Shown here in pieces: positions 17,063 through 61,773 of a DNA stretch of 64,000 nt (position 1 is the stretch's first letter; every line of letters begins with the position of its first letter). The DNA is from Isosphaera pallida ATCC 43644 (GTDB taxonomy: Bacteria > Planctomycetota > Planctomycetia > Isosphaerales > Isosphaeraceae), in the NCBI RefSeq assembly GCF_000186345.1, contig NC_014962.1, positions 5,050,450-5,114,449 on the forward strand, written 5' to 3'. The notes beneath the pieces are model-generated. The model did not search any database, was not told the DNA's origin, and saw only the letters and a program-made list of their open reading frames with translations. Position numbers and translations under genes: made by a program.

Positions 17063-17743
17063 ATGCAGGCTACTCTGGTCATGATGCTGGCTCTCAACGG
17101 GGTCGGCTGCCATCACGTTCCCTGCCACAACGTGGTGATTGTCCCCGCGTGCCATTCTTCGTGCTACACCTGCTACTCTTGCCACAGCTGCGTTTCGTGC
17201 TATGGCTGCTACGGCTGCACCTCGTGCTACACCCCGGTCAAGCATGGTTTCCTGGGCGGCCTGTTCCGCAAGCATCATGGCTGTCACTCGTGCTATGGCT
17301 GCTATGGCTGCACCTCGTGCTATGGCTGCTATGGCTGCCACTCGTGCTATAGCTGCTGCTATGGCTGCACCTCGTGCTATAGCTGCTATGGCTGCACCTC
17401 GTGCTATAGCTGCTATGGCTGCCACTCGTGCTATGGCTGCTATGGCTGCCACTCGTGCTATGGCTGCTATGGCTGCCACTCGTGCTATGGCGTGAGCTAC
17501 GCGCCTGTGGCTCCTATTTATGATGCTCCGGCTGCGGCCACCCAGGGAATGTCTGCGGCTCCGACCTACGGTGCTGGCCAAGCCACGGCTCCGGCTCCGG
17601 CTTCTCAGCCCGAGGAACCCGCTACCCCTTCTCAGTCCACTCCCCCCCCCTCGCAGCCTGCTCCCCCGGATGAGATGGAAGCTCCCGCTCCCGAAGCTCC
17701 CGCCCCTGATACTCTGGATCAACCTGATTTCCCCGTCCTGTAA
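17063..17743 (+). CDS. cysteine/tyrosine-rich tandem-repeat protein with Pro-rich tail
   Basis: A 226-residue protein with 35 cysteines, all in roughly its first 150 residues. ATG 17063 follows GGAGG with good spacing and a short hydrophobic N-terminus (ATLVMMLALNGVG), probably an export signal though it lacks basic residues. From residue 30 or so cysteine occurs almost every third position in units such as CYGCYGCHS and CYGCYGCTS, interrupted once by a basic insert (VKHGFLGGLFRKHHG). The last 75 residues are Ala/Pro/Glu-rich. It has its own promoter and hairpin terminator. I infer an extracellular, disulfide- or metal-crosslinked structural protein; planctomycete walls are reported to be cystine- and proline-rich protein. 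No enzymatic domain is seen. Confidence 0.8.
   Translation: MQATLVMMLALNGVGCHHVPCHNVVIVPACHSSCYTCYSCHSCVSCYGCYGCTSCYTPVKHGFLGGLFRKHHGCHSCYGCYGCTSCYGCYGCHSCYSCCYGCTSCYSCYGCTSCYSCYGCHSCYGCYGCHSCYGCYGCHSCYGVSYAPVAPIYDAPAAATQGMSAAPTYGAGQATAPAPASQPEEPATPSQSTPPPSQPAPPDEMEAPAPEAPAPDTLDQPDFPVL
17282..17490 (+). repeat. 27-bp tandem repeat encoding the 9-residue Cys/Tyr/Gly unit
   Basis: About eight near-identical 27-nt units built from TGCTATGGC and TGCCACTCG / TGCACCTCG blocks. Variation among copies is mostly H/T and G/S replacements, with one 6-nt loss giving a CC doublet (SCCYG). Confidence 0.85.
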
Positions 17744-56139: not shown

Positions 56140-58527
56140 TCAGTGCAGCAAGACCAGTTTGCGTTTGAACAAACCGTGACCGAGCTTGAACTTGGGACCC
56201 AACAGACCGCCGTGGTGATGCCGGACTTCCACGACTGGACCTCCTAGAATCACGGGGGCAGGCGAAATCCCGTGGGATTGCGATTGCTCGGCGGCCAGAA
56301 CCGTGGGCGGGCCATAAACCGGAACCTTCACGTCGATCTCAACCGGCACCTGACGGCAAATCACCCGAGGCTGGGTGATCGTTTGGGTCTCCATGACCGT
56401 TTTGACGACGCATTGAGGGACCATCACCGTAACACACGTGAGCACGACCCGCTGAACAGTGTAGGGCACCTGGCGATAGTGGGTTTCGGGGACCTGCTCG
56501 CAGATCGTGGTTGGCACGCAGACCACCCGTTGCTCGTAGATCGTCTCGCAAACGACCCGTGCCACCTCACGAGTGACGGTTTGGGGAACCATGACCGTGT
56601 AGGGAACCGGAACCTCAACCACACGGGTTTCGGGCACGATCTTCTTGACCACCACCGGAATTTGACGGCAAACGACCTGAGGCACCAAACGAGTGACAGT
56701 GTAGGGCACTTCCTCGCAAATCTGACGCTTGACCATGCGGGTGATGGTGACGGGAATCTGCTCGCAAACTACGTCGTTGACCACGCGGGTCATCGGGATT
56801 GGCACCATGCGGCAGACCTTGACATAAACCGTGTCCACCACTGGAACCTTGACCTTGCGATGGATCACCTGAGGAACCATTTCGACCACACAAACCGGCA
56901 CCTGCTTGACCACCGCTTGCGGTACCATGCGGCAAACCACGCGAGGCACCGACTTCATGACCGTCTCAGAAACGCAACGGGTCACACAAACCGGCACCTG
57001 ACGGGCTTCGACCCGGGGAACCGTCACACAGACCTCAACTGGAACCTGACGGTAACGGCATTGAGGAATCATCCGGGTCACCGGCACCGGCACCATCCGA
57101 TAGTGGGTCTCCGGTACGGCGCGGGTGATGGTCACCGGTACGACACGCTGGACAGGCACCGCGACCTGACGACAGACTGGGATTGTCACCAGACGTTTGA
57201 CCGGCTTGCGATCGTACACCACCTCATAAACCGTTTCCATCACGGTTTCCACCTCGTAGGTCATGGTGGGAATCGCTGGCAACGGCGGAGGAGGTGCTTG
57301 GGATGACGCCACCGCGCTTTGTTCGGCGGCCAACGGCAAGCCCTTGATCGGAACGGGCAAACTCTTGGGAACCAGCTTGATCCGCTGCCGCGGCACTTGA
57401 CGAGCCACTGTCCGAGGAATGCAGATGAGGTCTTCAATCTCTTGGGTCACGTAGTCTTGAACCGTTCGATAGGCCGTCTCGGTGACAGTTTGATAGGTGA
57501 TTTCGGGAATGCAGCGGGTGACGGTGTAAGGTTGAGGTTGAGGAACGACCTGCGTGACCGGCACCATCTCGGTGTAAGCTTCGGTCTTGAACACCGTGCG
57601 GGTTTCTTGGACCGGCACGGTGACGTGAACCGTCTTCATGACGGTTTCCTGAACCGGACGGGACACCACGAAGGGAACCTGTTCGTAGACGACGTCACGG
57701 ACCGGCACCATCACGGTGAAGGTCTGAGGTTGGCAGACGATCCGCTTGACCGGAACTTGAATCGTTTCGGGAACGCAACGGGTTTCCAGACGTTCGACCT
57801 GTCGAGCCTCCAACTGGATTTGGGGCCGCATTACGGTGAACGACTCGATCCGCGGCACGACCCGTTGCACCGTTTTGAACACCGTCTCCTGAACCGGCTC
57901 GCACACAATCCGAACCATCGGACGAGTCAGCGTTTCCTGAACCGGAACACACACGGTGGTCTGGACCGTTTGCAGTACCGTCTCGCACACTTCGCGGGGC
58001 ACGGTGTACGATCGGGACTCCAGACGGGTTTGCACCACGGGAACCTCGATCGTCTCGGGCACATACTCGCGGACGACCCGTTGCACCTGACGCGGGATGG
58101 TCTGGACGACTGAGCGTTGAACCACACGCTGGACCGGACGATGAACCACGTAGGGCTCGACTCGGTAGCACACCTCTTCGACCATCTTGGGCACGGTGAC
58201 CACCCGAGGCACTTGAATGGTTTCAACGACCTGGCGGGGGACCTGGATCAGCCGTTGCTCCGCAACCACCTCCTGCACCATTCGCATGACGGTTTGACGC
58301 ACGATCTGATAATCGACCCGAGGCGGTAGCGCAACTTGTTCGGAGGGCAACGCCTTGGTCTGAACCGATGGAGCAGGCAACACGTCCGAGGCAACCCCTC
58401 CGGCATATCCCGCAGCCCTAGCCAGGGGACTCGTGGTCACCAAGATCGTTGCGACCCCCACAACCAACGCCGCCCCCCAGGTCGCACCAACCGGGTGACT
58501 CGGCTCAATCCTTTGATCTGATCGCAT
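56140..58527 (-). CDS. giant YTV-repeat exported protein
   Basis: About 795 residues from ATG 58527 (alternative ATG 58548). A signal-like segment (WGAALVVGVATILVTTSPLARA) is followed by some 45 copies of a short strand motif of the form PVxxxVxxTVxxxVCRxVP, e.g. VPVQETRTVFKTEAYTEM, QPYTVTRCIPEITYQTV, PYTVTRLVPQVVCRQIP. This is the YTV domain, known to me as confined to planctomycetes and of unknown function. About 25 cysteines are spread along the repeats; two Pro/Ala linkers occur near residues 50 and 420. It ends with a His/Gly/Lys-rich tail (HHHGGLLGPKFKLGHGLFKR). I infer an extended beta-rich wall or surface protein crosslinked by disulfides. Confidence 0.85.
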   Translation of the reverse strand: MRSDQRIEPSHPVGATWGAALVVGVATILVTTSPLARAAGYAGGVASDVLPAPSVQTKALPSEQVALPPRVDYQIVRQTVMRMVQEVVAEQRLIQVPRQVVETIQVPRVVTVPKMVEEVCYRVEPYVVHRPVQRVVQRSVVQTIPRQVQRVVREYVPETIEVPVVQTRLESRSYTVPREVCETVLQTVQTTVCVPVQETLTRPMVRIVCEPVQETVFKTVQRVVPRIESFTVMRPQIQLEARQVERLETRCVPETIQVPVKRIVCQPQTFTVMVPVRDVVYEQVPFVVSRPVQETVMKTVHVTVPVQETRTVFKTEAYTEMVPVTQVVPQPQPYTVTRCIPEITYQTVTETAYRTVQDYVTQEIEDLICIPRTVARQVPRQRIKLVPKSLPVPIKGLPLAAEQSAVASSQAPPPPLPAIPTMTYEVETVMETVYEVVYDRKPVKRLVTIPVCRQVAVPVQRVVPVTITRAVPETHYRMVPVPVTRMIPQCRYRQVPVEVCVTVPRVEARQVPVCVTRCVSETVMKSVPRVVCRMVPQAVVKQVPVCVVEMVPQVIHRKVKVPVVDTVYVKVCRMVPIPMTRVVNDVVCEQIPVTITRMVKRQICEEVPYTVTRLVPQVVCRQIPVVVKKIVPETRVVEVPVPYTVMVPQTVTREVARVVCETIYEQRVVCVPTTICEQVPETHYRQVPYTVQRVVLTCVTVMVPQCVVKTVMETQTITQPRVICRQVPVEIDVKVPVYGPPTVLAAEQSQSHGISPAPVILGGPVVEVRHHHGGLLGPKFKLGHGLFKRKLVLLH

Positions 58528-58895
58528 GGCCCGAACGACTCCTCTCATGACGCTCCATTCCTTGCGGTCGCCCGCGACGATTCGCGCTCCGACCTTGATC
58601 CGACACAATACCACTCGAGCCTCCGGCACGAGTCTTTCACAGGAATACTTACCTTTGGATCGGCTAGTTTTCCAGTTCGGACAACTCATCCCGCTCGCCA
58701 AACTCGCGGTTGTTCCCGCAATCCCCCGGGCGGTGATTGTAGGCAACTTGACGGTTGAGTTCATACGACACGACGACTCAACGATTTGGGCTGAGTGGCT
58801 TTTGTGGATTCTGAGTCTGGTGACGCTTGAAGTGTGTGGTTCACTCTCCTTCCCGTTCACCTCATCTTTTTCTTTTCACGTCGAGATTTCGAATC
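58528..58895. promoter_or_regulatory. divergent region between YTV gene and argJ
   Basis: About 370 bp, moderately AT-rich near 58600-58880, shared by two divergent genes. The open frames here are extensions without protein character. No clear -35/-10 pair is seen. Confidence 0.35.
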
Positions 58896-60180: not shown

Positions 60181-60561
60181 TCAGCGGCGTCGGCGAGCTT
60201 CTTCGCGAAGGGTATTGAGCGCGATGACCTCGGCGACTTCAAACGAAGGCACAACCGCGTCCGGCACTGGCCGCAGCCTGACAATCGTGGGGAAATAGCC
60301 CATGCGGCCGTGAAGTTCGGCGATCACTGCGCAGGCGATGGCGCTCAAACTCGGCGGATTGACGATCAACGGCGTGTGTTGCCATTGCTCGCGGGACATG
60401 CCCACCGAGTCGATCAACGCGACCGCCTGGGCGGCGAACGACTCGTTAGGGTCGAACTGGGTTTGGATGTCGAGAATGTTCTCGATGGGCGTTCCCACCA
60501 ACGCGCCCAGTTGAGCGCGTTGGCGTTCGGTGAACGGGTGGGCAAAGTTCAGGAGGAGCAT
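60181..60561 (-). CDS. csx15: CRISPR-associated protein Csx15
   Basis: A 126-residue soluble protein. MLLLNFAHPFTERQRAQL at the start, WQHTPLIVNPPSLSAIA in the middle, and the signature AELHGRMGYFP (81-91) with IVRLRPVP and FEVAEVIALN match Csx15 as I know it. Csx15 has been predicted to be a CARF-superfamily protein acting on cyclic oligoadenylates as a ring nuclease or binding protein. It starts 3 nt after the stop of the CARF-HEPN gene, so the two are one transcript. The pairing fits an off-switch for the neighbouring nuclease. Recognition is from memory of the family pattern. Confidence 0.75.
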   Translation of the reverse strand: MLLLNFAHPFTERQRAQLGALVGTPIENILDIQTQFDPNESFAAQAVALIDSVGMSREQWQHTPLIVNPPSLSAIACAVIAELHGRMGYFPTIVRLRPVPDAVVPSFEVAEVIALNTLREEARRRR

Positions 60562-60564
60562 CGA

Positions 60565-61773
60565 TCAACTTTGGGTTAGAGTGGATTGAGTTTCCCGTAC
60601 CCATTGGCTATGAAGTTGCAAAAACTGATTGATGATGGTCTTGGGAGGCATTGGATCTTTCCTGTAGCCTGCATGTTGAATATCGTTTCGGAGCTGACTG
60701 ATTTGTTTCCCGAGGTTCTCGTGACGTTCAAAGAAACGCTTCTCAGCCTCCTCCCGAGCATCCTTGTCGAAGTCGACCGTTCCAGGCTTATCCGAGCGTG
60801 AGTCGGCATATTTGGTGATCCAGCCTTCGCGCAGGGTTGCGCATGCCTCCGCGATGCGTCCCATCTTGAAGTAGAGCATGGACAGATATTGTAACGCCGC
60901 TTGGCCTTGGGGGTCGGAAAGACACGTCGCGCCACAAAGCGGTTTGAGACGTTCGATGACCATATCCACCACTTTGCCGAGGGGAGGCAGGATCTGAATC
61001 ACCTCGTCACGCGCCTTCTCCATCATGTTGACCAGCTGTTGACTGGACGATTCGGGACCAAGAAGAAGGCATCCGGTTCGTACCGTGATAAAGTCGTCAC
61101 TGAACTTTTCGAGAAGTTTCGCCAGTTGGTCCAGGTCGGTGGGTTGTCCTTGACGGCCTTCAGCTGCCCATTTCTTCTTGAGATCCCGACCGATTTTCCG
61201 AGTGGGTTCCACCACGCCCTGGGCTTGCCCCGTCTTGAGGAACAGGAGCAAGGACCGCGACCATTCGGAGAGTTCGACGAAGGGGGTCAGGTCCCAAATC
61301 CGTGAGTTCTCGGGTTGGTTGCGGTTGTACTCGCCATAGATGACATGAACGTCTTCGGAACGGTTGAAAACCGACTGGAGATACTGAATCACCCCAGAGG
61401 CGAAAAATGGCTGAGCACGAAATCCATGAGTAATATCAATATAAACAACATCATCTGAAGATTGAAGGACATCGAGGATGATCTCGAACTGGTTCCACAA
61501 CTCGTCTTGCGAGGCTCCGTCGGGAATCGTTCGACGTTGGGGGGTGGGCAAGTCGGCTTGAGCGAACGTGTCGCAAACGGATTGACCATGTGCTTGCCAT
61601 GCTTTGTCTGTAGCGAGAAGAACGACTTCGATGTTTTTTTGCGATTCGATATTCTGAAGCATTTTGGCAATCGCGAACACAACGTATTTGGAAGAGTAGC
61701 TCTCGTTGTTCCAACGATAACAAGCGTTCTCGTAATTGCCGGTGCCTAAGAAGCTGATGAGCCGAATCGACAT
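60565..61773 (-). CDS. CARF-HEPN ribonuclease of the Csx1/Csx2 (TM1812) family
   Basis: A 402-residue protein from ATG 61773 (GAGG 8 nt upstream). The N-terminal CARF-type Rossmann domain opens with RLISFLGTGNYENACYRWN, has the strand NIEVVLLATDKA and the family motif DITHGFRAQP at 113-122. The C-terminal helical domain carries a HEPN RNase motif, R362-NDIQ-H367, in QLRNDIQHAGYRKDP. By family, binding of cyclic oligoadenylate made by Cas10 would activate RNA cleavage and arrest growth or kill phage-infected cells. No Cas10, Cas7-like or array is in the window. GC is visibly lower than in the neighbours, suggesting transfer. Confidence 0.85.
   Translation of the reverse strand: MSIRLISFLGTGNYENACYRWNNESYSSKYVVFAIAKMLQNIESQKNIEVVLLATDKAWQAHGQSVCDTFAQADLPTPQRRTIPDGASQDELWNQFEIILDVLQSSDDVVYIDITHGFRAQPFFASGVIQYLQSVFNRSEDVHVIYGEYNRNQPENSRIWDLTPFVELSEWSRSLLLFLKTGQAQGVVEPTRKIGRDLKKKWAAEGRQGQPTDLDQLAKLLEKFSDDFITVRTGCLLLGPESSSQQLVNMMEKARDEVIQILPPLGKVVDMVIERLKPLCGATCLSDPQGQAALQYLSMLYFKMGRIAEACATLREGWITKYADSRSDKPGTVDFDKDAREEAEKRFFERHENLGKQISQLRNDIQHAGYRKDPMPPKTIINQFLQLHSQWVRETQSTLTQS

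Follow-up and report, generated by a model that had tools for sequence, protein, structure and literature searches.

Isosphaera pallida is a hot-spring planctomycete. In the 64-kb stretch of its chromosome that was analyzed here, referred to below as the window, a csx1-type nuclease gene is followed by a csx15 gene, and the pair occupies C2:5110630-5112222. Both genes start with ATG, the nuclease gene running from 61773 to 60565 and csx15 from 60561 to 60181. An earlier reading, made from the sequence alone, had placed the two genes 3 nt apart and had named two motifs of the nuclease; these positions are correct, and both genes lie on the minus strand. The features, numbered in the window, are the following.

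60565..61773, (-): csx1-type gene P0001, 402 aa; CARF domain at about residues 1-168, helical linker and HEPN ribonuclease domain
61408..61437, (-): CARF motif, D113-ITHGFRAQ-P122; residues 113-119 invariant in 5/5 aligned sequences, that of the window included
60673..60690, (-): HEPN RxxxxH motif, R362-NDIQ-H367; R362 and H367 invariant in 5/5 aligned sequences, that of the window included
60562..60564, (-): intergenic gap of 3 nt between P0001 and P0002; same spacing in the Gemmataceae locus L051
60181..60561, (-): csx15 gene P0002, 126 aa; predicted cA4-binding sponge or slow ring nuclease
60538..60540, (-): codon of Csx15 H8, which aligns with the catalytic H13 of CliCsx15 (H11 of PfCsx15; PMC13148439)
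60310..60312, (-): codon of Csx15 H84, which aligns with H90 of CliCsx15 (H82 of PfCsx15; PMC13148439)

The unit had also been described as lower in GC than its neighbours. This is true of the nuclease gene (51.7%, GC3 59.1, compared with 61.8% for the window) but not for csx15, which at 61.9% (GC3 76.4) is close to the window value.

P0001 is a member of the CARF-HEPN (Csx1) group, and its CARF and HEPN motifs are intact. It matches the NCBIfam profile CRISPR_DxTHG (TIGR02549) with 36.5 bits at a cut-off of 21 and the PADLOC CARF-HEPN model at 1.2e-110. Against the csx2 equivalog profile of NCBIfam (TIGR02221) it scores 74.8 bits and is thus 1.45 bits short of the curated cut-off of 76.25; among its relatives, the fused protein of locus L056 passes at 90.4 and that of L051 fails at 70.0. 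The score against Pfam Csx1_CARF (PF22230) is also below the cut-off (16.2 versus 24.7 bits), although the assignment of P0001 as a CARF protein is backed by further CARF models and by the structural match. The best solved match of an AlphaFold model of P0001, calculated from five sequences (pLDDT 80.4, pTM 0.61), is Csx1-Crn2 from Marinitoga sp. (PDB entry 8y7g; Foldseek E 7.8e-15). When this model is compared by VIA with PDB entry 8y6z, P0001 aligns over 381 residues with a Z of 21.8, an rmsd of 5.1 and 19% identity, followed by Sulfolobus Csx1 (6qzt) with a Z of 18.7 and by Csm6 structures with Z values of about 9 to 14, and the CARF folds align across residues 1-168. Against the possibility that the first gene belongs to a non-CARF family, profiles, conserved residues and predicted structure agree on CARF-HEPN. 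Marinitoga Csx1-Crn2, a Csx1 RNase with a structure solved with cA4, is the closest solved parallel, being a CARF-HEPN nuclease that is physically tied to a cA4 off-switch; however, its off-switch is Crn2 and is fused, whereas that of I. pallida is Csx15 and is a separate gene. Judging from this match and from the pairing with Csx15, P0001 would be activated by cA4 and would cleave RNA.

By its profile matches P0002 is beyond doubt a Csx15, with 164.7 bits over residues 3-126 against NCBIfam NF040560 (cut-off 35) and 5.1e-38 against the PADLOC Csx15 model; the scores of the two proteins exclude chance matches, and the original reading of them as CARF-HEPN and Csx15 is borne out by HMM searches. 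The residues named for cA4 binding or cleavage in PMC13148439 are H11/H13, H82/H90 and three C-terminal arginines, and their counterparts in P0002, located both by aligning it with 9teu and in an alignment of 14 sequences, are H8, H84, R119, R123 and R126. A conserved serine near the first histidine, S9 of PfCsx15, is also reported there. P0002 differs from CliCsx15 and PfCsx15 in having no serine beside this histidine, the sequence being NFAHP. Since the preceding residue varies among the 14 relatives (Ala, Ser, Gly or Thr), the serine was not taken as defining Csx15. For these two relatives, CliCsx15 from Chlorobaculum limnaeum and PfCsx15 from Pseudomonas (PDB entries 9teu and 9tet), PMC13148439 establishes cA4 binding, filament formation or slow hydrolysis, and it describes PfCsx15 as a sponge with little hydrolysis, for which a dampening role is proposed. 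P0002, which shares their profile family and their catalytic and binding His and Arg residues, is accordingly predicted to be a cA4 sponge or a slow ring nuclease. The settings differ: CliCsx15 belongs to a type III-A locus, PfCsx15 stands as an orphan, and P0002 has a Csx1 partner and is remote from the type III locus. No paper was found on 'CbCash' (9ylu), one chain of which resembles Csx15 in its second half.

The pair had been proposed to be self-contained. In the Pfam, NCBIfam and PADLOC profiles neither P0001 nor P0002 matched a nucleotide cyclase family, and because neither gene makes the signal this description does not hold. The statement that the window contains no cas10, cas1 or array was corroborated: the Cas10, Cas1 and RAMP matches of the genome lie elsewhere, and none of the five repeat families listed in the window resembles a CRISPR array. 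A type III locus directly beyond the window was also looked for and rejected on the positions of the same matches, and a repeat search that covered about 25.6 kb past the right end of the window and 20 kb ahead of the left end found no array. Two repetitive features of the window may be mentioned separately: a tandem repeat of about 27 nt at 17157-17522, given as nine overlapping 81-nt copies, and a 906-aa frame at 56140-58860 (-), the translation of which consists of numerous imperfect repeats with a high content of Val, Pro and Arg.

The genome of strain IS1B comprises a chromosome of 5,472,964 bases and a plasmid of 56,340 bases (PMC3072084). A profile search of the whole genome for cas10 found one Cas10, with the motif GGDE (C2:3098502-3098900), in a type III-B operon with the order cas10-cmr3-cmr4-cmr5-cmr6-cmr1 (C2:3097140-3105451), which lies 2.0 Mb from the nuclease-csx15 pair. 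All six genes are open and recognized by NCBIfam profiles, Cmr3 being under its curated cut-off (88.1 versus 100.4). No CARF effector is present among 25 of the 51 PADLOC families matched by the 22 ORFs flanking this operon; most of these 25 are PD-T4-6 families, alongside mad3, mad6, MkoA and one labelled as a kinase. The window protein is the sole match to the DxTHG CARF profile in the whole genome. A csb2-cas2-cas4/cas1 cluster of the type I-G kind lies at C2:723397-726747 (L010), with no other type I-G genes beside it in the ORFs scanned, and might provide the III-B system with spacers or with crRNA processing. Arrays were found neither in the stretch analyzed around the Cmr genes nor in that around cas1. 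The only array obtained by pattern search is on the plasmid (C1:47067-49232; L039) and has 30 repeats of 37 nt, 28 of them identical, whereas the cas genes found are chromosomal. The pattern detects only repeats that end in TTGAAA at a set spacing, and published repeat counts for this genome are 3 or 2, so that further arrays are likely. The term orphan, which had been applied to the pair, is apt for its neighbourhood but not for the genome, where Cas10, a Cmr operon and an array are present.

Related nucleases place the pair in a type III context. In Isosphaeraceae the nuclease is present in three of 45 genomes, those of I. pallida, G395 (47% identity) and G415 (44%), all three of which have Cas10. 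The orthologues in G395 and G415, which are two other genera of the family, lie within a Cmr operon directly behind cmr6 and are fused to the ring nuclease Csx3 (Crn3), whereas I. pallida has a separate Csx15 and the unit is outside the operon. The G395 fusion has 501 aa (L068:12362-13867; C-terminal Csx3 1.4e-25) and that of G415 has 514 aa (L070:16-1560; Csx3 9.3e-27). The order in G395 is a cmr1-like gene, cas10, cmr3, cmr4, one small gene at the position of cmr5, cmr6 and the fusion, and downstream lie a 64-repeat array and cas1/cas4-like genes; the G415 locus is on a 5.8-kb contig that ends just past cmr3, and the Cas10 match is on another contig. In both genomes cmr5 is assigned by position alone, with no phmmer match. 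Since PADLOC already includes a CARF-HEPN-Csx3 model, the architecture of this fusion is already known.

At L051, a locus from Gemmataceae, the type III operon ends with a CARF-HEPN gene and then csx15, separated by the same 3-nt gap as in I. pallida; its Cas10-like gene is under the curated cut-off (29.7 versus 79.4) and a TIGR03986 RAMP is well above its own. In L056 Csx1 and Csx15 form one protein of 527 aa on an 8.4-kb contig on which no recognized cas gene or array was found, and a stop codon lost by error is possible in this single MAG. A 2014 paper had already described fusions of Csx15 and CARF genes (PMC4012209), in contrast to the adjacent genes of I. pallida. Taken together, these loci suggest that an orthologous nuclease is paired with different cA4 off-switches: Csx3 fused, Csx15 separate and Csx15 fused. 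More widely, P0001 has a match in eight genomes of the phylum. Cas10 is present in six of these; the remaining two genomes are 77% complete, and in one, G243, the locus includes a Cmr6-like gene. Outside the phylum, relatives with 22-31% identity occur in 19 plasmid records, and one on a Thermus plasmid (27.7%) adjoins cmr6 of a complete cmr operon.

The distribution of Csx15 was analyzed in a phylum sample of 392 genomes, outside which lie G395 and G415, these having been reached through the family search. Csx15 is present in five and Cas10 in 66 of the genomes, and all five with Csx15 also have Cas10 (Fisher 1.2e-4, from five Csx15 genomes and with phylogeny ignored). Besides that of the window, 13 cellular csx15 loci were collected, nine from a scan of genome contigs and four from the phylum sample. 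Seven of the 13 (G167, G361, G051, L051, L053, L057 and L059) have Cas10 or RAMP genes in the DNA analyzed around csx15, L053, L057 and L059 being assigned solely through phmmer matches with the operon genes of other loci. The Cmr operon of G361, which is homologous to that of I. pallida (Cas10 2.1e-87, with the same GGDE), has csx15 immediately in front of it, and in both G361 and G167 csx15 stands in front of cas10 without this nuclease. Among the other six, L056 is the fusion described above; L054 has a CARF protein and cas1/cas2 at the csx15 locus; G089 has Cas10 on contigs other than that of csx15; L052, whose csx15 is identical to that of G167 at 133 of 134 positions, and L058 are on short contigs. 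At L055, from Armatimonadetes, a phmmer search against the reference set found no cas gene within 20 kb. A 449-aa frame there was rejected as a fusion, as it arises where an upstream frame, lying opposite another ORF, continues into csx15. Csx15 was absent from the plasmid and phage collections, including the INPHARED phage set, by tblastn. In a published survey, ring nucleases in effector-containing loci occurred only with cA4 effectors (PMC12409355).

Starting from the observed parts, motifs and genomic company of the pair, we consider it likely that the two genes serve a dispersed type III-B CRISPR system as its output arm. This agrees with the suggestion in the sequence-only reading of an effector and off-switch that serve a type III locus elsewhere, for which the distant Cmr operon with no effector seen nearby, the plasmid array and the type III operons of the relatives now provide support. 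For cA4 specificity, the filament mechanism and communication between loci, this interpretation draws on characterized relatives. The Cmr complex, using plasmid-encoded crRNAs as guides, would make cA4 upon binding target RNA; cA4 would diffuse, as a diffusing signal is known from the literature, bind the CARF dimer and turn on RNA cleavage by the HEPN domains. Csx15 dimers would stack head-to-tail around cA4 and absorb low or stray levels of it, perhaps with slow hydrolysis, such that the nuclease would fire only above a threshold and could be shut off. The points against this interpretation are that the Cas10 motif is GGDE and not GGDD, that Csx15 has no serine beside the first histidine, and that the TIGR02221 and Cmr3 scores are below their cut-offs.

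A broader form of this interpretation, towards which we lean with less assurance, is that a single III-B system exists in pieces (the plasmid array, the adaptation genes, the Cmr genes and the effector with its off-switch), the chromosomal ones about 1 Mb or more apart, and that the nuclease is a portable alarm output with an off-switch exchangeable between relatives, reached through diffusing cA4 alone. Neither the two families nor the link between them is new; the uncommon features are the distance of the pair from a Cmr operon near which no effector was seen, and the different off-switches exchanged on orthologous nucleases. PMC11229360, under 'Inter-locus signalling', discusses type III loci that lack effectors and may signal to other loci. 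The I. pallida operon resembles these in bearing a cyclase, with no effector seen nearby and an effector elsewhere; however, the partner in that proposal is a second type III locus, whereas here it is a bare pair of effector and off-switch. Because one Cas10 and one DxTHG CARF effector were found, far apart, the pair would be a clean natural case for the proposal that type III complexes send signals to effectors whose genes lie at other sites. A nuclease with differing cA4 off-switches also bears on the role of Csx15, a good sponge but a very slow ring nuclease.

The scatter of the parts across megabases and two replicons could also mean that the module is a relic, in which Cas10 or the crRNA supply is inactive and the pair is stranded without a signal; the variant Cas10 motif, the low Cmr3 score and the lack of further type I-G genes around the csb2-cas2-cas4/cas1 cluster, among the ORFs scanned, would fit this. 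We regard it as unlikely, as the six Cmr genes are recognized and open, the two genes of the pair are intact, as are their motifs, and 28 of the 30 plasmid repeats are identical. Furthermore, GGDE is among the Cas10 variants of effector-bearing loci, and hence among those likely to be active (PMC11229360), and G361 shares it in an operon with csx15 in front. It is similarly doubtful that Csx15 is mainly a protector, with the genes kept and moved as a toxin/antidote-like unit in which basal cA4 is absorbed so that the nuclease is tolerated. The 3-nt spacing in I. pallida and L051, the fusion in L056 and the sponge behaviour and proposed dampening role of PfCsx15 are consistent with this, whereas csx15 also occurs without this nuclease, before cas10 in G361 and G167, and orthologous nucleases carry a fused Csx3 instead; it departs from the output-arm interpretation mostly in emphasis. 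The other option left by the sequence-only reading, that the pair is no longer tied to type III and answers a non-CRISPR nucleotide signal, for example from a CBASS-type cyclase elsewhere in the cell, has little in its favour and is improbable: although the 64 kb yielded no type III gene, 25% of Csx15 occurrences are in genomes without type III loci (PMC12409355) and the L056 and L055 genes have no cas genes in the stretches searched, the I. pallida genome has Cas10 and an array, Cas10 is present in 5/5 sampled Csx15 genomes and 3/3 family members with this CARF-HEPN, and the orthologues sit in type III operons.

Csx15 is also encoded on four IMG/VR contigs (L060:10001-10378, L061:10001-10381, L062:10001-10381 and L063:10001-10375), the genes of L061 and L062 being identical. 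A published survey found no Csx15 in phages, and a literature search for phage-encoded Csx15 yielded nothing beyond it. Phage-type genes surround csx15 in L060 and L061, including phage-type integrase, primase, RusA and Sak4-like genes in L061, and a baseplate-wedge gene (5.7e-15) is on one of the csx15-bearing contigs. A terminase profile match in L063 was rejected as proof of a phage, as it falls on a primase protein, and this profile had no match in the other three records. In the L063 protein the second catalytic histidine is replaced by tyrosine and the last arginine is absent. If the contigs are truly viral, their Csx15 proteins are candidate cA4 sponges, that is, candidate anti-CRISPR proteins.
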